Shown here one piece after another: positions 18,210 to 31,011 of a stretch of 64,000 nt of DNA. The position numbers and the translations under genes were made by a program. The stretch comes from Trueperaceae bacterium. Lineage in GTDB: Bacteria > Deinococcota > Deinococci > Deinococcales > Trueperaceae. The notes beneath the pieces were generated by a model. It was not told where the DNA came from. It saw nothing but the letters and a program-made list of their open reading frames with translations, and did not search any database. Position 1 is the stretch's first letter. Every line of letters starts with the position of its first letter. Location: assembly GCA_011389865.1 (NCBI GenBank), contig JAABTL010000002.1:186001-250000 (forward strand), read 5' to 3'.

Positions 18210-20390
18210 GTGACCCAACGATCCTTCGTCGGCATCTTGCTGCTGGGCGTCGTGCTCGCGGCCTTCGCCTACCTGTGGCAGCCTTGGAGCGACACCCCGG
18301 GCGACAACCTCAAGCTCGGCCTCGACCTGCAGGGTGGCCTCCGCGTCGTGCTGCGCTCGGATACCCCCGACCCCGCGCGTGAGGACATCGACACCGCCCG
18401 CAACATCATCGAGAACCGCGTCAACGAGTTCGGCGTCGCCGAGCCGCTGATCCAGACCAGCGGCGCCGACCGCATCATCGTCGAGCTCCCCGGCCTGACC
18501 GCGTCCGACCAGAGCCGCGCGCTCGACCTCATCGGCCAGCAGGCGGTCCTCGAGTTCCGCCTGGTGCGCAGCAGCGCGCAGTCGCTCGCCACCCAGGAAC
18601 TGACCCTCGCGGACCTGGAGGACATCGCCTTCACCGGCGAGATCATCCGCACGGCGCGCGCCGACTTCGAGCGCGTCGGGAGCGCCACCCTCGGGCCGGC
18701 CGTGCTGTTCGAGGTGCGCGCCGAGGACGCGCGCGCGTTCGGCGACTTCACCGGCAGCAACATCGGCCGGCGCATGGCGATCGTGCTCGACGGCGTCATC
18801 CAGACGGCGCCGACCCTGAACTCGCGCATCACCGACTCCGGGCAGATCACCGGCATCGCCGATCTCGACGAGGCGGCCGACACGGCGCTCGTGCTCCGTT
18901 CCGGCTCGCTGCCGATCGCGCTGACGGTCGAACAGATCAGCGCCATCGGCCCCACGCTGGGGCAGGACTCGATCGCGGCAGGCACCCGCGCCGCCATCAT
19001 CGGCGGCCTCGCGGTCGTGGCGTTCATCATCGCCTACTACGGACCCCTCTTCGGCGGCGCGCTCACGATCGGCCTGCTGCTGGTCATGCTCTTCATCTTC
19101 GGGGCGCTCGCGGCCCTCGGTGCCGCCCTGACGCTGCCCGGCCTGGCCGGCCTGGTGCTCACGATCGGCGCCGCGGTCGACGGCAACGTGATCAGCTTCG
19201 AGCGCATCCGCGAGGAACTGCGGGCAGGCAAGGGCCTGCGCGTCGCCATGCGCAACGGCTTCGGCAACTCGCTGTCCGCGATCATCGACGCCAACGTGAC
19301 GACGCTGCTGGCCACCGCCGCCCTCTACCAGTACACCAGCGGCCCCGTGCGCGGCTTCGCGATCACCCTGGCCATCGGCCTGATCGCCGCGATGTTCGTC
19401 AACATCGTCGTCGTGCCGTGGCTGCTCGACGTCGCGTCGATCCGCACCAAGCGCACCTTCATGCGCCCCGGGTACTACACCGAGAAGCTCAAGGTCGTGA
19501 AGCGCGCGCCGGTCGTCCTGGCGATCTCTGGCCTGCTGGCCGTGGCCTCGCTGGTCCTCGTCTCCGTCGTCGGCCTGCGTCTCTCGACCGACTTCACGGG
19601 CGGCACCAGCGTGCTGCTGCGCGTGCCCGACGGCACGACGGTCGGCGACGTGCGCGCCGTGCTCGACGGACCCGGCTTCGCCTCGGTCGCCGGCTCCAGC
19701 GCGACGATCGTCGAGGTCATCGACCCCACGGTCGAGGGCACGCTCGTCACCGTCCGCGTGGGTCTCACCGAGGGCGCCGAGGGCTTCTCGTTCGCGCTCG
19801 CCGAGGCCGCCGACGCCGAGGTGCTCTCCTCCGAGTTCGTCGGCCCGGCCGTGGGCGCCGACCTGCGGCGCGGCGCCGTCCTGGCCGTCCTGGTCGCGCT
19901 CGGGTTGATCCTCGTGTACGTCGGCTGGCGCTTCTGGCCGAACTGGGTCATCGCCCTGGCGACCGTGCTGGCCGCGGTCCACGACGTCGGCCTGGTGCTC
20001 GGCTTCCTCGACGCGATCCGCGCGGAGATCGGCGTGCCGGTGCTGGCGGCGCTGCTCTTCGTGGTCGGCTACTCGCTCAACGACTCGATCATCATCTCCG
20101 ACCGCATCCGCGAGAACCTGCGCAAGGTCCGTGACCGGTCGTACTCGGACGTCGTCGACCTGTCGGTCAGCCAGACGATCTCGCGCACGCTGGTCACCTC
20201 GGGCACGACGCTGCTGCCCGTGCTCGCGCTGCTGTTCTTCGGCGGCAGCGTGCTGCGCGACTTCTCCATCACGCTGCTGGTGGGCATCGGCATCGGCACC
20301 TACTCGTCCGTGTTCGTGCTGGCACCGATCATCGTCTGGTTCAAGACCTTGCAGCGCAAGCGCCGGCGGGCGCGACGCAGCTTCGCCTGA
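18210..20390 (+). CDS. secDF: SecDF fusion protein translocase subunit
   Basis: 726 residues joining SecD and SecF in one chain with twelve predicted transmembrane segments. SecD half: TM1 near the N-terminus, the GLDLQGGLRVVL motif, a shortened periplasmic P1 region, then five TMs from ~residue 265 (AAIIGGLAVVAFIIAYYG) to ~415. SecF half starts ~425 with a TM and STDFTGGTSVLLRV, and ends with the RND-like membrane bundle (VVGYSLNDSIIISDRIRENLR). It uses the proton gradient to help complete protein export. GTG start with GGAGA nine bases upstream. Fused SecDF is known in several phyla. Confidence 0.96.
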   Translation: MTQRSFVGILLLGVVLAAFAYLWQPWSDTPGDNLKLGLDLQGGLRVVLRSDTPDPAREDIDTARNIIENRVNEFGVAEPLIQTSGADRIIVELPGLTASDQSRALDLIGQQAVLEFRLVRSSAQSLATQELTLADLEDIAFTGEIIRTARADFERVGSATLGPAVLFEVRAEDARAFGDFTGSNIGRRMAIVLDGVIQTAPTLNSRITDSGQITGIADLDEAADTALVLRSGSLPIALTVEQISAIGPTLGQDSIAAGTRAAIIGGLAVVAFIIAYYGPLFGGALTIGLLLVMLFIFGALAALGAALTLPGLAGLVLTIGAAVDGNVISFERIREELRAGKGLRVAMRNGFGNSLSAIIDANVTTLLATAALYQYTSGPVRGFAITLAIGLIAAMFVNIVVVPWLLDVASIRTKRTFMRPGYYTEKLKVVKRAPVVLAISGLLAVASLVLVSVVGLRLSTDFTGGTSVLLRVPDGTTVGDVRAVLDGPGFASVAGSSATIVEVIDPTVEGTLVTVRVGLTEGAEGFSFALAEAADAEVLSSEFVGPAVGADLRRGAVLAVLVALGLILVYVGWRFWPNWVIALATVLAAVHDVGLVLGFLDAIRAEIGVPVLAALLFVVGYSLNDSIIISDRIRENLRKVRDRSYSDVVDLSVSQTISRTLVTSGTTLLPVLALLFFGGSVLRDFSITLLVGIGIGTYSSVFVLAPIIVWFKTLQRKRRRARRSFA

Positions 20391-21650: not shown

Positions 21651-22472
21651 TCAGACCACCCGTCTCAGGTGCACGAGCCACCAGGCGCCGTCGCGGCGCG
21701 CGTCGACCCATGCCAGCCGCGGCCCGCCCACGCCGCCGGCGTCGTCCAGGAGGGCGAGTGCGTCCCGTAGCAGCTCGTGGCGGGGATCGAGGATGCCGCT
21801 GAGCAGGAGGTCGCCGCCGAGGACGGTGAGCGCGGCGTATGCCGCCAGCCACGCCGCGTGCAGCTCGGCGTAGAGGTTGGCGACGAGCACGTCGACGGGC
21901 TCCAGCGCCACGTCGCCGAAGCCGCCGACGAGGAAGCGCGCGCGCGAGCGGTTGCGCTCGCCGTTCGCTCGGGCCACCGGCACCGTGTCGGGATCGACGT
22001 CGATCCCCAGGGCATCGGCGGCCCCCAGCTTGTCGGCCGCGATCGCCAGAAGCCCCGAGCCGGCGCCGACGTCGAGCACCCGGCGCCCCGCCAGCGGCAG
22101 CATCCCGAGCGCCTCGAGCGCCAGCCGTGTGGACTCGTGGTGACCGGTGCCGAACGCGGTCCCCGGATCCAGCCACACGACCTGCTGGCCCGCGCGCAGC
22201 ACGGCCTCGCAGTGCGTGGGCGCCACGACGACGGCACCGGCGTCGACGGGGGTCAAACCGGCGAGGTAGGCGGCGACGTGGTCGACCTCGGGGACGTCCT
22301 CCCAGCGGCCGTCGCCGGGTGGCGTCGCGGGAGCGTCATCCGGGAAGTACGCCACGAGGTCGGGGCCGTCGATCCACACGGCGGTCGCCCCGGCCGCCCA
22401 CAGGGCGGCGGCCTCGGGCCCCTCCTCCGCCAGCGGCGCGGCGGCCGCCCCGCCGAGCCGCCAGGCCCTCAT
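21651..22472 (-). CDS. prmA: ribosomal protein L11 methyltransferase
   Basis: 273 residues. A small N-terminal substrate-binding region is followed by a class I SAM methyltransferase domain: DPGTAFGTGHHESTRLALEAL is the PrmA signature, VLDVGAGSGLLAIAADKLGA is motif I, and LVANLYAELH is motif IV. It trimethylates ribosomal protein L11. The ATG overlaps the stop of the upstream fusion gene (ATGA). Confidence 0.94.
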   Translation of the reverse strand: MRAWRLGGAAAAPLAEEGPEAAALWAAGATAVWIDGPDLVAYFPDDAPATPPGDGRWEDVPEVDHVAAYLAGLTPVDAGAVVVAPTHCEAVLRAGQQVVWLDPGTAFGTGHHESTRLALEALGMLPLAGRRVLDVGAGSGLLAIAADKLGAADALGIDVDPDTVPVARANGERNRSRARFLVGGFGDVALEPVDVLVANLYAELHAAWLAAYAALTVLGGDLLLSGILDPRHELLRDALALLDDAGGVGGPRLAWVDARRDGAWWLVHLRRVV

Positions 22473-24217
22473 GTGGGCACCCCGCCCGCCGTGACGCCCT
22501 CCTCGGCCCGCACGGGCGGATCGCCGTCGCGCAGGTCGCGGGTGATCACCTCGAAGCCGAGGCGCTCGCCCTCGGCCAGGTACCACTCGATGTCCGCGAT
22601 GCGCGTCTGCGGACCCAGCGACGCCCGGTCGAAGGCCTGCGTGGCGGTCATGATCATCGTCTCCGCGAGGCAGGCGGGCACGAGCCCGTCGCCGAAGTGC
22701 AGGTCGATCTGGCTGCGCAGCGCGCCCGGAGGTCGCACGACCCCGCCAGGGATCAGCTTGACGCCGGGCACCTCGTTCACCTCCGGGTGCACGTCCGCGG
22801 GGCGGCCGATGTCGAAGACCCATGCGCCGGGCTTGACGTGCGCAGCGCGCAGCACCGGCAGCGGGTCGGAGGTCGCGGTGAACACCAGGTCGGCGTTCGC
22901 CACCGCGGCCACCTCGGTCGAGGTCCGCACCTCGAGCTCGGGGTGCTTCCGCTGCAGGGTCTTCGCCGATCGATCGAGGCGCTCGAGGTCGCGGCCGACG
23001 AGCACCAGGCGGCCGACCTCGCCCGCGAGCACCCGCGCCACCCCGAAGGCGACGACGCCGTTGGCGCCGATCACGGCCGCCTCCGCGCCTCGCAGGTCGC
23101 CCCCCTCCTCCTCGAAACGCCGGAGCAGGCCGGGGACGGCCGCGCGCACGGTCGCGGCCGTGTAGGCGCCGCCGTTGGTGATCGCCAGGTCGGGCACCGC
23201 GGCCTTCACCAGCAGCCCCTTGTCGCCTACCGTCGACCAGAAGGCACCGAGACCGAACGCCTCGGCGCCGAGCTCGCGGGCGAGCCTGGCCCCCTGGATG
23301 GCCATCCGCTCGGCCTGCTCGGTCTGCGTGCGGATCTGGTCGGGGAGCATCGGTCCGCCGATCAGCGCCACGCGCAGCTCGCGGCCATCGGGCAACGCGA
23401 CGCCACGGATCTCACCCTGCACCTGCGGACGCAGGCGCGGCAGCATCCAGCGGAGCAGCCCCTCGGGCAGCCAGCCGCGCCGGGCCAGCGGCGCCAGCCA
23501 CCGCTGGCTCGGCGGCTGCCACAGGTCGTCGACCGTCATGGGATGAGCCATGAACGCCGCCAGCACCACGTTCGGGTCGAGGCCACGCACCGGCGGTGGA
23601 TCGCCCAGGCGGGGCTCGGTGCCGTCCTGCATCCGGGCGATCGCCGACTTCTGTCGCCAGGCGCCGAGCGCGAACATCGCGACCCCCGCGATCGACGCGA
23701 CCGGGCCCGCGCCGCCGAGGGCCAGCGCCAGCGGCAGCGCGAGCAGGCCGGCCAGCGTGCCCAATGCGACGAAGCGCGTCGCGGCCAGCACGGCCGCGTA
23801 GGCGATGACCGGCACCGCGAGCAGCACGGCCGGATCGGGCCCGAAGGCGGCCCACGCGGCCAGGGCGCCCAGCAGCACGCCGTTGCCGCGCCCGCGCGGC
23901 ATGTCGACACCCCACGCCCGCGGCCACGGTGCCACGTGCCCGACGTAGACGCCCGCCGCCGCGGCGGCCGCGGCACCCGGCGCCCACGGCGCCACCAGCG
24001 CGACCGGTAGCGCGCCCTTGACGATGTCGAGCGAGAAGCTGCCGAGCGCCACCGGCAGGCCGGCCAGGCGCAGGACGTTCTCGACGCCGAGCAGGTGCGG
24101 GTTGAGGTCGCGGGCCGCGTGGCCGGTGACGCGTCGCACCAGGCTCGCCCCCAGCGGGACGGTGCCGACCACGTACGCGAGCGCCGCCGACGACAGGACG
24201 AGGGCGAGGGTGATCAT
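22469..24217 (-). CDS. fusion: PlsY-like membrane domain + acyl-ACP reductase (AAR)-like domain
   Basis: 582 residues. Residues 1-~190 are a five- to seven-TM domain resembling the glycerol-3-phosphate acyltransferase PlsY: YVVGTVPLGASLVRR, then NPHLLGVENVLRLAG where PlsY has GSGNIGATN, a conserved DIVKGALPVALV, and MPRGRGNGVLLGAL where PlsY has KGGKGVAT. Two of three PlsY motifs are thus altered. Residues ~215-565 are soluble and match cyanobacterial long-chain acyl-ACP reductase in motif order: FGLGAF (321), TNGGAYTA (347), Rossmann VIGANG (382), PGGVV (490) and ACLAETMI with Cys516 at the position of AAR's acyl-enzyme Cys. Predicted product: a membrane-bound enzyme making fatty aldehyde. 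First gene of an operon with prmA and rsmE. Confidence 0.8.
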   Translation of the reverse strand: MITLALVLSSAALAYVVGTVPLGASLVRRVTGHAARDLNPHLLGVENVLRLAGLPVALGSFSLDIVKGALPVALVAPWAPGAAAAAAAGVYVGHVAPWPRAWGVDMPRGRGNGVLLGALAAWAAFGPDPAVLLAVPVIAYAAVLAATRFVALGTLAGLLALPLALALGGAGPVASIAGVAMFALGAWRQKSAIARMQDGTEPRLGDPPPVRGLDPNVVLAAFMAHPMTVDDLWQPPSQRWLAPLARRGWLPEGLLRWMLPRLRPQVQGEIRGVALPDGRELRVALIGGPMLPDQIRTQTEQAERMAIQGARLARELGAEAFGLGAFWSTVGDKGLLVKAAVPDLAITNGGAYTAATVRAAVPGLLRRFEEEGGDLRGAEAAVIGANGVVAFGVARVLAGEVGRLVLVGRDLERLDRSAKTLQRKHPELEVRTSTEVAAVANADLVFTATSDPLPVLRAAHVKPGAWVFDIGRPADVHPEVNEVPGVKLIPGGVVRPPGALRSQIDLHFGDGLVPACLAETMIMTATQAFDRASLGPQTRIADIEWYLAEGERLGFEVITRDLRDGDPPVRAEEGVTAGGVPT

Positions 24218-25932: not shown

Positions 25933-27120
25933 ATGGCCTCAACGCGCGGACGCATGTCGCGCTTCCTACGACCCAGGATCGAAGCCGTCGGCCTCGAGAT
26001 CGGGACGTCGGCCCTGAAGGTGGTGGAGCTGCGGCAGGGCAACCCGCCCAGCCTGGCCGCCCTCGGGATCCGGCCGATGCCCCCCGGCCTCGTGCAGGAC
26101 GACCAGATCATCGACGCCCCCGGGCTTGCCGCGGAGGTCAGGGCCCTCTTCGACGAGGCGGGGATCCGCAAGCGTCACGTCGTCTCGGCGGTCTCCAACC
26201 GACAGGCGATCACCCGCAACATCATGGTCCCCAAGATGACCCTGCAGGAGCTCGAGGAGGCGATCAAGTGGGAGGCGGAGCGCTACATCCCCTTCCCGAT
26301 CGACGAGGTCGAGCTCGACTTCTACGTGCTGGACAACCCGGACGACGTGTCCGAGGGCGGCCAGCTCGAGGTCGTCATCGCGGCCGCCCGCCTCGACCTG
26401 CTCACGCAGCAGGTCGAAACGCTTCGCCTGGCCGGCCTCGAGCCGGTCGTGATCGACATCAAGCCGTTCAGCCTGCTGCGCTCGCTCAAGGGCGCGCTGC
26501 TCGGTGAGCATCTCACCAAGACGACCCTTTCGGGCAGCGGCTACACCGAGGCGAACGAGATCGGCGTCGTCCTCGAGATCGCCGCCTCGAACACCACGAT
26601 CACCCTGGTGCGCGGCGAGCGGGTGCTGATGAACCGCAACATCGGCGTCAGCGGCGACGACTTCACCGCGGCGGTGCAGCGCGCCTTCGGCCTCGACTTC
26701 GACAGCGCCGAGGACGTGAAGCTGCAGTTCGGGACGGCCGTCATCCCCTCCGAGGACGAGGAGGAGCTGCTCAACTTCGACGCCAAGCGCGAGCAGTACA
26801 GCCCCAGCCGGGTCTACGAGGCGCTGCGGCCGGTGCTGATCGAGCTGACCACCGAGATCCGCCGCAGCCTCGAGTTCTTCCGCGTGCAGACGGGCGACGC
26901 CAACATCAACCGCATGCTGATCACCGGTGGCGGCGCCAAACTCCGCGGCCTCGCCGAGGCCGTGGGCGACACGCTCGGCGTGCGCACCGAGGTCGGCGAC
27001 CCGTGGCTGACCGTCACCGCGGACGGTAACCGCTTCGATCGGGCCTACCTGCACGACGTCGGCCCTGGGCTCGCGGTGCCGCTCGGCCTGGCGCTCCGGG
27101 GGGTGAGCGGCCTTGATTAA
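25933..27120 (+). CDS. pilM: type IV pilus assembly protein PilM
   Basis: 395 residues. Actin-like/FtsA-fold cytoplasmic ATPase of the pilus inner-membrane alignment complex. N-terminal GLEIGTSALKVVEL is the phosphate-1 loop; ITGGGAKLRGLAEAV near the C-terminus is the adenosine-binding motif; IKWEAERYIPFPIDEVELDF is a strongly conserved PilM segment. It binds the N-terminus of PilN. First gene of pilMNO(P/W)Q, with a strong GAGGAGG ribosome site. Confidence 0.95.
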   Translation: MASTRGRMSRFLRPRIEAVGLEIGTSALKVVELRQGNPPSLAALGIRPMPPGLVQDDQIIDAPGLAAEVRALFDEAGIRKRHVVSAVSNRQAITRNIMVPKMTLQELEEAIKWEAERYIPFPIDEVELDFYVLDNPDDVSEGGQLEVVIAAARLDLLTQQVETLRLAGLEPVVIDIKPFSLLRSLKGALLGEHLTKTTLSGSGYTEANEIGVVLEIAASNTTITLVRGERVLMNRNIGVSGDDFTAAVQRAFGLDFDSAEDVKLQFGTAVIPSEDEEELLNFDAKREQYSPSRVYEALRPVLIELTTEIRRSLEFFRVQTGDANINRMLITGGGAKLRGLAEAVGDTLGVRTEVGDPWLTVTADGNRFDRAYLHDVGPGLAVPLGLALRGVSGLD

Positions 27121-27727
27121 CATCAACCTGCTGCCCAAGAGCCTCCAGCGCGTGCGCGAGCCCGGTTACTGGCGCGTCCTGGCGGTCGTGGTTCCGCTCG
27201 CGGTCGGCAGCGTGCTGTTCTCGATCTCGTATCTGACCAACCAGACGATCGCCAACCTCGAACGCGACGTGCAGCTGCGGCAGGACCAACTGGCGCTGCT
27301 GCAGCCGTTCCTGCAGGAGCAGCGCGACCTGCAGGCGCGGCAGCAGGCCCTGCGGGCCCTGATCGCCGTCGCCGAAGAGGTGCGGCTCGGCCAGGTCGTG
27401 TGGACCTCCGAGATCCCCGCGCTGCTCGAGTACGTTCCCGCCATGAGCGACGACGGCGTCACGCTGATCGACTTCAGGAGCCTCAACCTGCGCTCGGTCT
27501 ACCCGCCGTCGAGCGACGCGAACCGCTACGAGGGTGCGGCGATCGTCTCCGAGGCGTCGATCTCGGGCACCGTTCGTGGGCCCGAGGTGCTCGCGACCTT
27601 CGTCCGCAACCTGGAGAACGCGCCCGACTTCGGCGTGCTCTTCCAGAACGCCTCGCGCCAGTCCGAGGATGAGGAGCTGTTCACCTACAACCTCACCGTC
27701 GGCGGCTTCTCGGGGGCCGAGCGATGA
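27113..27727 (+). CDS. pilN: type IV pilus assembly protein PilN
   Basis: 204 residues from a TTG that overlaps the pilM stop by 8 nt; the protein then begins with the PilM-binding motif INLLPKSLQR, which fixes the start. One TM (VLAVVVPLAVGSVLFSI), a periplasmic coiled coil (~50-85, many Gln/Leu heptads) and a ferredoxin-like fold follow. It forms the inner-membrane complex with PilO. Confidence 0.92.
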   Translation: MININLLPKSLQRVREPGYWRVLAVVVPLAVGSVLFSISYLTNQTIANLERDVQLRQDQLALLQPFLQEQRDLQARQQALRALIAVAEEVRLGQVVWTSEIPALLEYVPAMSDDGVTLIDFRSLNLRSVYPPSSDANRYEGAAIVSEASISGTVRGPEVLATFVRNLENAPDFGVLFQNASRQSEDEELFTYNLTVGGFSGAER

Positions 27728-28302
27728 GGTTCTCCCTGCGCAACATCCGCCAGCGCGACATCGCGCTGATCCTCCTGGTCCTCACGATCGTCGGCGGCGT
27801 GCTCTGGTACTTCTACCTGTACACGCCATCGCAGGAGCGCATCGCCGACCTCGAGGCCGACATCCAGCGCCTCGACGTCGAGATCCGACGCGGCGAGGAC
27901 GCCCGCCGGAACCTCCCCGAGTTGCGGCTCGCCGTCGCGCTCCTCGAGGAGGAGCGGCGCGTGTTCCTCTCTCAGCTCCCGCAGGAGTCGCAGGTCGCAG
28001 ACGTGATCGACGACCTGCGGCGCTCCGCCGAGGACGCGGGCGTGACGATCGCCAGCTTCAGCCAGGGCGGCGCGTCGGGCAACATCGAAGACGTGCGGCC
28101 GATCGGCTTCACCGTCGCCTCGAGCGGCACCTTCGGGGAGGTCATGGGCTTCATCGGCGTGCTCGAGGGCCTACAGCGCTACACGAAGATCAACCAGGTG
28201 GGGCTGTCGCTCTCCAGCGACGACTCGACCGACCCCGACCTCTCGACCAACGTCGGATTCACCGTGTACGTCTTCACGGGCTCCGACCCCGGGGAGCGTT
28301 GA
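27724..28302 (+). CDS. pilO: type IV pilus assembly protein PilO
   Basis: 192 residues. Short cytoplasmic start, one TM (IALILLVLTIVGGVLWYFYLY), a periplasmic coiled coil (~40-80, RIADLEADIQRLDVEI) and a ferredoxin-like domain (VADVIDDLRRSAEDAGV). Partner of PilN. ATG overlaps the pilN stop (ATGA). Confidence 0.92.
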   Translation: MRFSLRNIRQRDIALILLVLTIVGGVLWYFYLYTPSQERIADLEADIQRLDVEIRRGEDARRNLPELRLAVALLEEERRVFLSQLPQESQVADVIDDLRRSAEDAGVTIASFSQGGASGNIEDVRPIGFTVASSGTFGEVMGFIGVLEGLQRYTKINQVGLSLSSDDSTDPDLSTNVGFTVYVFTGSDPGER

Positions 28303-28303
28303 C

Positions 28304-29548
28304 ATGGCGCTGTCCCGCACCGCCCGCATCCTGATCGCCATCCTGCTGCTCGCCGCCGCCGCCTTCTTCTGGGTGAACTTCTTCTACCAGAGCCGCTTGG
28401 CCGAGGCCCCCGCGCAGGACCCCGTCACCGCGACCCCCGCCGCGCCCAGCGCCGGAACGACCGCCGACGGCGAGGCGACCGAGGGCGAGGCCGCGCCGGC
28501 CGATGACGTCGCCGCCGAAGACGGCGACGCCGAAGACGGCGACGCCGCCCCGGCGTCCGCGGAGGTCGATCCCGACGTGGCCGCCGATCCCGACGCCATC
28601 GTGGTGGCCGAACCCGAGGTCGTCGCCATCGATCCGGCGATCGCGGTCACCCGCGACATCGTCATCGCCGACCTCCCCTTCCTGGTGACCGAGCCCCAGG
28701 CCGCCGTCGAGGAGGCCGAGCCCGAGCCCGAGGAGGAGGCGGCCGCCGGCGTCACGGTGCCGACCCGCGCGACCATCAACCCCTTCTCGCCCGTCGTCGT
28801 GCGCACCCCGCCGGCGCCCGCTCGCGACGTCCCCGCCGCCACCGCGCCCGCGGGCGACGTCGCGGTCGAGGTCCCGGTTCCCGCCGGCCCGCCGCCGGCA
28901 CCCGTCCGCCAGCCAGCACCCACGCCGCGTGCGGTCACGCCGGGCGCGCCGAGCGCGTCGCTCAGCCGCGACCTCCCCTCCGGCGCCGTGCTGTCCTCCG
29001 CCCCCGCCCTGCTGCGGCAGCCGCGCGTCGGCACCGTCGCCGACCGCGTCGACCTGCCGGCGATCACGGTGATCGCCGTCCCCGATCCGGAACCCGCGGT
29101 CATCGATGCGCCGTCCGCCCCGCGGCCGCCGGCGCCGTCGGTCGATCTCGAGCCGGTGGGGCCGATCGCGGAGCCGGCCGCGGTCACCGAACCCGGACCG
29201 GACGTCTCCGTGGCGACCGACGAACCCGCGGCCTCCGGTGAGCCCGCGGCCTCCGGTGAGCCCGCGGCCGAGGGCACCGGCGCGGTCGCCGCCGAGGCGC
29301 CGCTGGCGGCTGGCTCGACGGGCCTCGCGCGGTTCCTGCGGGACAACGACTACGCCTTCACGGGCTCCGTGTTGGGCCCCGTCAGCGTGGGCGTGTTCCG
29401 CTCCAACCTCGACGCGGCGCCGATCGTCGTCTCCCTCGGGCAGACGCTGCCCAACACCGAGATCGTCCTGACCGACCTCCGCGGCATGCAGGCGGAGTTG
29501 ACCCTCGGCCAGACCACGCAGATCCTCACCTTGGACCTCAGGCGGTGA
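28304..29548 (+). CDS. PilP/PilW-position pilus protein with long low-complexity spacer
   Basis: 414 residues. One N-terminal TM (RILIAILLLAAAAFFWVNFF), then ~300 residues dominated by Ala, Pro, Glu and Val, and a compact C-terminal domain (~335-414; ARFLRDNDYAFTGSVLGP to ILTLDLRR) like the PilP/GspC homology region that docks on the secretin. In Thermus this position is held by PilW; in proteobacteria by the lipoprotein PilP. The spacer contains in-frame tandem repeats (AEDGD twice; an 18-bp unit at 29225-29242 and 29243-29260, with a partial third). It probably spans the periplasm between the inner complex and PilQ. Confidence 0.75.
   Translation: MALSRTARILIAILLLAAAAFFWVNFFYQSRLAEAPAQDPVTATPAAPSAGTTADGEATEGEAAPADDVAAEDGDAEDGDAAPASAEVDPDVAADPDAIVVAEPEVVAIDPAIAVTRDIVIADLPFLVTEPQAAVEEAEPEPEEEAAAGVTVPTRATINPFSPVVVRTPPAPARDVPAATAPAGDVAVEVPVPAGPPPAPVRQPAPTPRAVTPGAPSASLSRDLPSGAVLSSAPALLRQPRVGTVADRVDLPAITVIAVPDPEPAVIDAPSAPRPPAPSVDLEPVGPIAEPAAVTEPGPDVSVATDEPAASGEPAASGEPAAEGTGAVAAEAPLAAGSTGLARFLRDNDYAFTGSVLGPVSVGVFRSNLDAAPIVVSLGQTLPNTEIVLTDLRGMQAELTLGQTTQILTLDLRR
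29225..29269 (+). repeat. 18-bp in-frame tandem repeat in the PilP/W-like gene
   Basis: CCCGCGGCCTCCGGTGAG occurs twice exactly (29225-29242, 29243-29260), followed by half a third copy (CCCGCGGCC). It encodes PAASGE units. A slippage-prone site likely to vary in number between strains. Confidence 0.85.
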
Positions 29549-29550
29549 AC

Positions 29551-31011
29551 ATGAAACGAGTGCTCTCCCTCCTCACGTGTGTGGCGTTGCTCGGCCTGGC
29601 GCCGGTGCTGGCCCAGCCGGCCGAGTTGCCGGCGGACGCCCGCTTCGACCAGCTGGTGTCGTTCTCGACCGGCCTCGCCGGCGAGGACCTGGGCACCATG
29701 CTCACCGCGCTGGCGCGCGCCGTCGACCTCACGCCCGTCATCGACGACGTGCCGCCCCGGACGATCGTCTACGACATCGGCGAACCGAAGCCGTTCCGGC
29801 AGGTCTGGGAGCTGGTCCTGACGCTCAACGACCTCGACTACCTGCTGCAGGAGAACGACATCGTCGTCATCGGCACCAGCGGCTCGCTGGCGCGGCTGCG
29901 CACGTCCGCCCCGGAGCCCGTCGTCGAGGGCGAGCCGCTCGAGCAGCGCTTCTACCGCGTGAACAACGACGTCGACACGGTCGTCCGGCTCCTCCGTCTC
30001 GCGGTGCCTGAGGCCACGGTCGAGGGGTTACCGGGGACGTCGGCCGTCGTGGTCAGCGCCACCGAGGAGCAGCACGAGGCCGTGGCGGAGACCCTCGCGG
30101 AGTTCGACCAGCCCGCCGAGGTCCTGCCGCTCGTCCAGCGCACGTACTTCCTGTCGAACTCCGACGCCGACAGCCTCGCCGAGACCCTGCGCGCCACCGG
30201 CGTCGTCGCCGGCAGCGAGGACGGCGAGGGGACCGGTACCCTCATCGACACCTTCACGGTCGTCGCGGACGCCCGCACCAACAGCCTGATCGTCACCGGC
30301 ACCGCCGCCGTCCAGTCGCGCCTCGGCGCGCTGATCGCCGAGCTCGACGAGCCGCAGCCGCAGGTCAACGTCCAGGTGCGCATCCAGGAGATCACGCGCC
30401 GCAGCGCGCTCGACCTCGGCATCGACTGGAGCACCGGCCTCGGCAACTTCACGGCCAACATCCTCTCGGGCGGCCTCAGCTTCATCTTCGACACCACGCA
30501 GGTGATCTCCAGCCTCAACGTGCGCGCCGTGCTCGACGCGCTCGAGACCCAGGGGCTCAGCCGCCGCGTGGACGACAGCAACATCACCGTCCTCAACAAC
30601 GGCCAGGGCACGATCCAGTCCGGCGGCCAGATCTTCATCACGCTGCCGGGCGCCCAGGAGAACATCGAGCGGACGATCCCCTATGGGGTCCAGGTCGACG
30701 TCACCCCGCGCATCACGGCCGACGGCCGCATCACCCTCGAGGTGTCGGCCAAGGTCGAGGACGTCCTGTCGACCACGAACGACCCCACCTTCCTCAACCT
30801 GTCGACCCGCAACCTCACCAGCACGGTCACCGTCGAGCAGGGCCAGACCCTGCTGCTCGGTGGGTTGCTGCAGAACTCGCTGGCGGTCACCCGTCAGCGC
30901 CTGCCGATCATCGGCAGCATCCCCGGGATCGGCGACCTGCTCGGCAGGACGGTGACCGAGGAGGACGACATCGACCTCCTGCTCATCATCACGGCGACCG
31001 TCATCGACTGA
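29551..31011 (+). CDS. pilQ: type IV pilus secretin PilQ
   Basis: 486 residues with signal peptide MKRVLSLLTCVALLGLAPVLAQ. Outer-membrane pore for the pilus and DNA uptake. N-domains: a STN/N0-like region (~20-110) and N1-type domains (FYRVNNDVDTVVRLL; RTYFLSNSDADSLAETLR). The secretin C-domain runs from VNVQVRIQEITRRSALDLGIDW to ENIERTIPYGVQVDVTPRIT and closes IDLLLIITATVID. It is much shorter than Thermus PilQ (~750), lacking extra N-terminal domains. An in-frame GTG two codons earlier overlaps the upstream stop; the ATG at 29551 gives the better signal peptide. Confidence 0.93.
   Translation: MKRVLSLLTCVALLGLAPVLAQPAELPADARFDQLVSFSTGLAGEDLGTMLTALARAVDLTPVIDDVPPRTIVYDIGEPKPFRQVWELVLTLNDLDYLLQENDIVVIGTSGSLARLRTSAPEPVVEGEPLEQRFYRVNNDVDTVVRLLRLAVPEATVEGLPGTSAVVVSATEEQHEAVAETLAEFDQPAEVLPLVQRTYFLSNSDADSLAETLRATGVVAGSEDGEGTGTLIDTFTVVADARTNSLIVTGTAAVQSRLGALIAELDEPQPQVNVQVRIQEITRRSALDLGIDWSTGLGNFTANILSGGLSFIFDTTQVISSLNVRAVLDALETQGLSRRVDDSNITVLNNGQGTIQSGGQIFITLPGAQENIERTIPYGVQVDVTPRITADGRITLEVSAKVEDVLSTTNDPTFLNLSTRNLTSTVTVEQGQTLLLGGLLQNSLAVTRQRLPIIGSIPGIGDLLGRTVTEEDDIDLLLIITATVID

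Follow-up and report, generated by a model that had tools for sequence, protein, structure and literature searches.

What does a protein do that joins a membrane domain resembling PlsY, the glycerol 3-phosphate (G3P) acyltransferase, to a domain resembling the acyl-ACP reductase (AAR) of cyanobacteria? We addressed this question for a gene in a 64,000-nucleotide stretch of a Trueperaceae bacterium genome (GCA_011389865.1, contig JAABTL010000002.1, positions 186,001 to 250,000), hereafter called the window. A preliminary description, made from the sequence alone, had placed the fusion at 22469–24217, and these coordinates are right. The frame lies on the minus strand, starts with an ATG at 24217, and comprises 582 codons plus a stop; Pfam, profile, and Foldseek searches all agree with the fusion. 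The protein combines known domains and has a remodelled PlsY site, and no earlier description of a PlsY/AAR fusion was found in the literature that we searched.

Residues 1–206 (23600–24217, minus strand) form the PlsY-like membrane domain. The Pfam model for PlsY, PF02660, matches residues 13–196 with 68.4 bits against a cut-off of 24.1, and the curated PlsY equivalog, TIGR00023, reaches 35 bits and does not pass its cut-off of 137.2. The AAR-like reductase domain covers residues 219–556 (22550–23563, minus strand), including the F-x-x-H-P start that is also found in the stand-alone homologues. The top NCBIfam model for the fusion is the PigE thioester-reductase region, NF053554 (81.6 bits, residues 289–537), and the curated AAR equivalog, TIGR04058, scores 32 bits, far under its cut-off of 449.7. 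Neither Pfam nor NCBIfam places an aminotransferase domain within the protein. Searched against the PDB, a profile of the fusion family found PlsY (5xj5) at E = 7e-27 and AAR (6jzq) at E = 2e-19, with AAR Cys294 aligned to Cys516 of the fusion in the second match. The AlphaFold (AF2) model, which was built from an input alignment of 45 natural sequences, had a mean pLDDT of 90.9 and a pTM of 0.89. With this model, Foldseek matched the membrane domain to 5xj7 (TM 0.83 by target, rmsd 2.8) and ranked AAR structures first, with 6jzu and 6jzz at TM 0.73–0.75 by target (0.75 for 6jzz).

The top whole-domain matches of the two halves are therefore PlsY and AAR and not another dehydrogenase, in line with the preliminary description. 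Pfam does label the Rossmann part of the C-terminal half as Shikimate_DH (residues 371–489) and as OCD_Mu_crystall, and such labels would suit a dehydrogenase of the COG5322 “predicted amino acid dehydrogenase,” shikimate, or mu-crystallin type that acts on a small polar metabolite. We consider this very unlikely, as the sequence matches to those families span the Rossmann part only, whereas both fold and sequence match AAR across the whole domain, the acyl-enzyme cysteine is invariant, and the domain is fused to an acyl-handling membrane domain.

The reductase half was also compared with AAR residue by residue. Cys516 (22670–22672, minus strand) corresponds to Cys294, the acyl-enzyme cysteine of Synechococcus elongatus AAR (SeAAR; PMC7089970). 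The active-site cysteine had been recognized in the preliminary description, and it proved invariant in three groups: all 60 Deinococcota fusions with a residue at this position, 6/6 fusions from a second phylum (described below), and 18/18 stand-alone homologues. The glutamate next to it is nearly invariant. The dinucleotide loop GANGVVA (residues 384–390; 23048–23068, minus strand) is equivalent to 162-GATGDIG-168 of SeAAR (PMC7089970), and its third glycine is an alanine in 59 of the 61 Deinococcota fusions. Arg189 and Arg193, which bind the 2'-phosphate of NADPH in AAR (PMC7089970), are kept in 55/61 and 61/61, respectively, and Arg314 and Tyr247 of SeAAR are not conserved in the fusions. 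In summary, the fusion shares with SeAAR (PDB 6JZQ/6JZU) the whole-domain fold, the cysteine, a dinucleotide loop (altered at the third glycine), and, in most copies, the two arginines, but it differs in its low identity (~21–22%), its score under the TIGR04058 cut-off, the attached membrane domain, and the loss of Tyr247 and Arg314. At this identity, a match to AAR “motif for motif” was an overstatement, although the fold and the cysteine stand.

An AAR-type thioester reductase domain is also found in PigE, TamH, and transaminase-AAR fusions (prodigiosin, tambjamine YP1, KecF/PP_2782), which are a known architecture (PMC10829540). The TamH reductase yields an aldehyde for the transaminase, giving a fatty amine (PMC9594044), and the PigE reductase domain likewise supplies an aldehyde for transamination to an amine (PMC8341465). 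The partner domain in these proteins is a class III aminotransferase, whereas here it is PlsY-like, and they belong to natural-product gene clusters, unlike the fusion, which is single-copy and phylum-wide. Based on the fold, the catalytic cysteine, the NADPH-site arginines, and these relatives, the aldehyde chemistry proposed in the preliminary description is well supported, and it is highly likely that the C-terminal domain makes a fatty aldehyde from an acyl thioester. The closest plasmid-borne relatives mostly carry a class III aminotransferase annotation; they comprise PigE-type clusters and a Haematobacter fusion. The Haematobacter protein, encoded on H. massiliensis plasmid pOT1-1 (L125:6438-9143, plus strand), joins a class III aminotransferase to an AAR-like domain outside any prodigiosin-type cluster and is a possible fatty-amine synthase.

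We then considered how widely the fusion is distributed. Strong matches (E <= 1e-62), with the frame kept, occur in 107 of 111 Deinococcota genomes, which is far beyond chance, and in 84 of the 85 good-quality genomes; this set contains no member of the genus Deinococcus. Of the other four genomes, two are incomplete and gave no match, and a third, 67% complete, yielded fragments; the fourth, G100, is 96% complete and is the sole good-quality genome without the fusion. Among named relatives, those closest to the window protein come from Trueperaceae MAGs, and the fusion is also carried by, among others, Thermus composti, T. scotoductus, Meiothermus granaticius, and Calidithermus roseus. When 33 Deinococcota genomes were re-checked with a reductase-only profile, none showed another full-length AAR-like copy. 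Deinobacterium chartae, a member of the Deinococcaceae used as a control, matches TIGR04058, which suggests that an AAR-like reductase is present there, fused or not. As a genome probe, TIGR04058 misses the window's own copy, so absence by that probe means little.

Gene neighborhoods were uninformative about functional linkage. In none of the families examined is the fusion flanked by an aminotransferase gene; its neighbors are dnaB/prmA/rsmE in Trueperaceae and, in Thermaceae, genes for a PF06695 protein and a nucleosidase-type protein (PNP_UDP_1). Elsewhere in the window, SecD and SecF share one 726-aa frame (18210–20390, plus strand), which is a known and ordinary variant, and an equally ordinary type IV pilus run, with PilM first and the secretin last, lies downstream of dnaB (25933–31011, plus strand).

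Outside Deinococcota, a match (L118) came from genome G111, a MAG that bears the title “Armatimonadetes bacterium,” and it is from this title only that the second phylum takes its name. Among 251 genomes of that phylum we found six full-length fusions. In ~225 of the 251, the best match spans the reductase half only, usually in an open frame of 355–440 aa (this count is based on E-values better than 1e-30, with explicit match ranges for about 150 of the matches listed). The stand-alone protein of ~360 aa has the same AAR-like domain end to end and the same cysteine, but it is unfused. Each of the six fusion-bearing genomes has the fused reductase as its sole reductase copy and a single PlsY, the fused one, so the fusion takes the place of the two separate genes there. 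One of these fusions (L173) passes TIGR00023 with 139.2 bits (cut-off 137.2).

The comparison with this phylum is most informative for the PlsY half. In PlsY of Aquifex aeolicus (aaPlsY), Ser35, Arg45, Lys104, and Asn180 clamp the phosphate of G3P, Ser142 and His177 are assigned to its 2-hydroxyl, and His92 and Thr41 are assigned to the acyl phosphate, with Thr41 at the carbonyl; mutants of S35, T41, and H177 are severely impaired (PMC5700162). All 14 canonical PlsYs from the two phyla have Ser35, Thr41, Arg45, Ser142, His177, and Asn180, and the second-phylum fusions keep S35, T41 (as T or S), R45, H92, K104, S142, H177, and N180 in 6/6. The alignment of Deinococcota fusions shows a different pattern: Ser35 is kept in 4/61, His177 in 9/61, and Asn180 in 34/61, while the Arg45 position is R or K in 56/61 and position 104 is R or K in 61/61 (Lys in Thermus). 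In the window protein, the Ser35, Arg45, Lys104, Asn180, and His177 positions are occupied by Pro, Arg, Arg, Ala, and Gln, respectively.

A change in the first PlsY motif had been noticed in the preliminary description, and it is real; the key residue is Glu46 (24080–24082, minus strand), at the position of Thr41, which is a glutamate in 60/61 Deinococcota fusions. The equivalent of His92 in the acyl-phosphate “phosphate hole,” His94 (23936–23938, minus strand), is present in 61/61. A second change, GNG for GKG, had been read off register. The segment RGRGNGVLLG aligns gap-free to GGKGVATALG, so Lys104 corresponds to Arg110, not to the asparagine, and the position is always basic. Arg110 is part of an RGRG loop (Arg108-Gly-Arg110, 23888–23896, minus strand) in which Arg108 is invariant across the Deinococcota fusions; aaPlsY has a glycine there. 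Compared with aaPlsY (PDB 5XJ5–5XJ9), the fusion retains the membrane fold, the DxxKG motif, His92, and the basic residue at Lys104, but the G3P clamp is lost (S35, H177, N180), Thr41 is replaced, Arg108 is new, and a reductase is attached.

Deinococcota carry two or three PlsY paralogues besides the fusion, one of them at full strength and thus available for normal acylation, and PlsX is present. The losses at Ser35, Thr41, and His177, taken with the separate full-strength PlsY, make it very probable that the PlsY half of the Deinococcota fusion has been freed from ordinary G3P acylation. It would be quite improbable, by comparison with the mutant data, for this half to be a G3P acyltransferase that still works, with the fusion merely co-locating two enzymes on one acyl pool. 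The six second-phylum fusions would fit that arrangement, as they keep all the PlsY residues and are the sole PlsY of their genomes, but the Deinococcota fusions have changed the very residues whose mutation severely impairs aaPlsY (PMC5700162), in genomes that contain another full-strength copy. As for the paralogues themselves, in the window's genome (G000) they lie at C44:132895-133422, C20:18915-19439, and C11:161117-161671, which together with the window copy illustrates the Deinococcota total of three or four. In some of the weaker copies in the phylum, Thr41 is replaced by Met or Leu, and such copies may use other acceptors.

Since Glu46 and Arg108 are conserved and not drifting, we read the PlsY half as remodelled and not decayed. 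Remodelling could mean that this half has its own new acyl-phosphate reaction in which G3P is replaced by another partner; it might, for instance, form an amide from a glyceroyl phosphate and the alkylamine that arises downstream of the reductase half. The combination of Thr41 to Glu in 60/61 with His92, a basic residue at 104, and the new Arg108 looks like a conserved replacement, and in the product lipid D-glyceric acid is linked as an amide (PMC3398001). We nevertheless regard a new reaction as unlikely, given that the H177 and N180 positions vary and that a role as an anchor or in acyl feeding needs fewer assumptions.

Trees of the two halves point to a common origin of the fusions. In the reductase-half tree, all fusions form one clade (100/100) amid the stand-alone sequences; SeAAR and the PigE-type domains sit on long branches, so we make no claim as to their exact placement. 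In the PlsY-half tree, the Deinococcota fusions group together (100/100), as do the canonical PlsYs (100/97), and the six second-phylum fusions fall between these two clades. With the root of these trees not established, the simplest history that they suggest is one in which a working PlsY was fused once, the fusion came to be in both phyla by transfer or common descent, and remodelling followed in Deinococcota. A PlsY joined to a reductase thus exists as the intact, sole PlsY in one lineage and with a remodelled active site in the other.

From these features we infer the reaction, its substrate, and the fate of the aldehyde. The C-terminal domain would take an acyl chain from acyl-ACP onto Cys516 and reduce it to a fatty aldehyde, most likely in an NADPH-dependent manner. 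In Deinococcota, the former PlsY domain, with its acyl-phosphate histidine kept and its G3P clamp lost, would position the reductase at the PlsX/PlsY acyl pool, acting as an anchor or itself handling an acyl chain. A separate aminotransferase would then most likely transaminate the aldehyde to the long-chain alkylamine of the N-glyceroyl-alkylamine phosphoglycolipids. We put this whole reading, a membrane-anchored fatty acyl-thioester reductase whose aldehyde feeds alkylamine lipids, at an even chance, and the alkylamine fate taken by itself at even or marginally better.

The alkylamine link had been proposed in the preliminary description, and part of it holds up. N-Glyceroyl alkylamine phosphoglycolipid has been described as an unambiguous marker of the whole Deinococcus-Thermus lineage, being known from Thermus, Meiothermus, and, in a related form, Deinococcus (PMC3035268), and Oceanithermus may have it too, based on chromatographic behavior (PMC3111992). 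As of 2022, the enzymes that form its third hydrophobic chain, the alkylamine, were stated as not identified (PMC9636437). Alkane biosynthesis is ruled out as an outlet for the aldehyde, as aldehyde-deformylating oxygenase (ADO; PF11266), the partner of cyanobacterial AAR, was found in 0/111 Deinococcota genomes while the S. elongatus control was positive. A 1992 study reportedly dealt with fatty acids as precursors of the alkylamine. With a marker lipid whose chain-forming enzymes are unnamed and no alkane outlet, the hypothesis fits within Deinococcota, and the fusion is the best candidate for the step that builds these fatty amines and one conserved gene through which the open question of the alkylamine chain becomes directly testable.

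Other observations weaken the link. No aminotransferase is linked to the fusion, no genome of the genus Deinococcus is in the set, and the stand-alone reductase is near-universal in a phylum from which, to our knowledge, no alkylamine lipid is known. We also count against our best explanation the alanine at the third glycine of the loop, the loss of Arg314 and Tyr247, and the absence of the gene from G100. The preliminary description had regarded occurrence in lineages lacking alkylamine lipids, together with a lack of aldehyde production, as evidence against the link, and the first of these is borne out insofar as the same reductase occurs unfused in nearly every second-phylum genome. This suggests either a broader role for fatty aldehydes or the presence of amine lipids yet to be looked for there.

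Such a broader role would be an ancient purpose common to both phyla, for example pools of fatty alcohols, 1,2-diols, ether lipids, or aldehydes; alkylamine would then be unrelated or, at most, a single outlet. Long-chain diols have been suggested to occur in small amounts in Meiothermus (PMC3035268). The ~225 genomes with a stand-alone reductase favor this reading, as do the six with the fused copy only, in which the fusion seems to have taken over the same core function. The closest characterized relatives of the reductase feed transaminases, however, and we know of no phylum-wide alcohol- or ether-based lipid of Deinococcota; on balance, we hold the broader role to be possible, if somewhat doubtful.

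A bolder form of the alkylamine proposal is that the fusion is the committed enzyme of alkylamine-lipid synthesis and that its PlsY half is a neofunctionalized acyl-phosphate enzyme, marked by the change of Thr41 to Glu and the lost G3P clamp. That half would hand acyl phosphate on to the cysteine of the reductase or else couple a glyceroyl phosphate with the alkylamine. This is speculative and, in our estimation, rather doubtful; if true, it would be new chemistry for the PlsY fold.

The analysis of the fusion also exposed a conserved family of ~303 aa, widespread in the two phyla, that travels with the reductase and is without a database model, as it had no match in Pfam, NCBIfam, or the PDB. 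In the second phylum, its gene is the co-directional upstream neighbor of the stand-alone reductase gene in 14/22 loci. The protein is also present in 9/9 Deinococcota tested, and in seven of these nine loci the gene is followed by what we take, from reading the sequences by eye, to be efp-, accB-, and accC-like genes. AccB and AccC are parts of the carboxylase that commits carbon to fatty acids, and these neighbors would tie the reductase/partner module to fatty-acid metabolism. Tight co-occurrence of partner and reductase was not supported, as the partner is also found in several genomes whose reductase match is weak or absent. Examples of the family are found at L163:7251-8162 (minus strand) and, in the window's own genome, at G000:C11:278680-279561, and its motifs include TPVVDGSGLKHTLE, DRFGMA, and TNVMEG.
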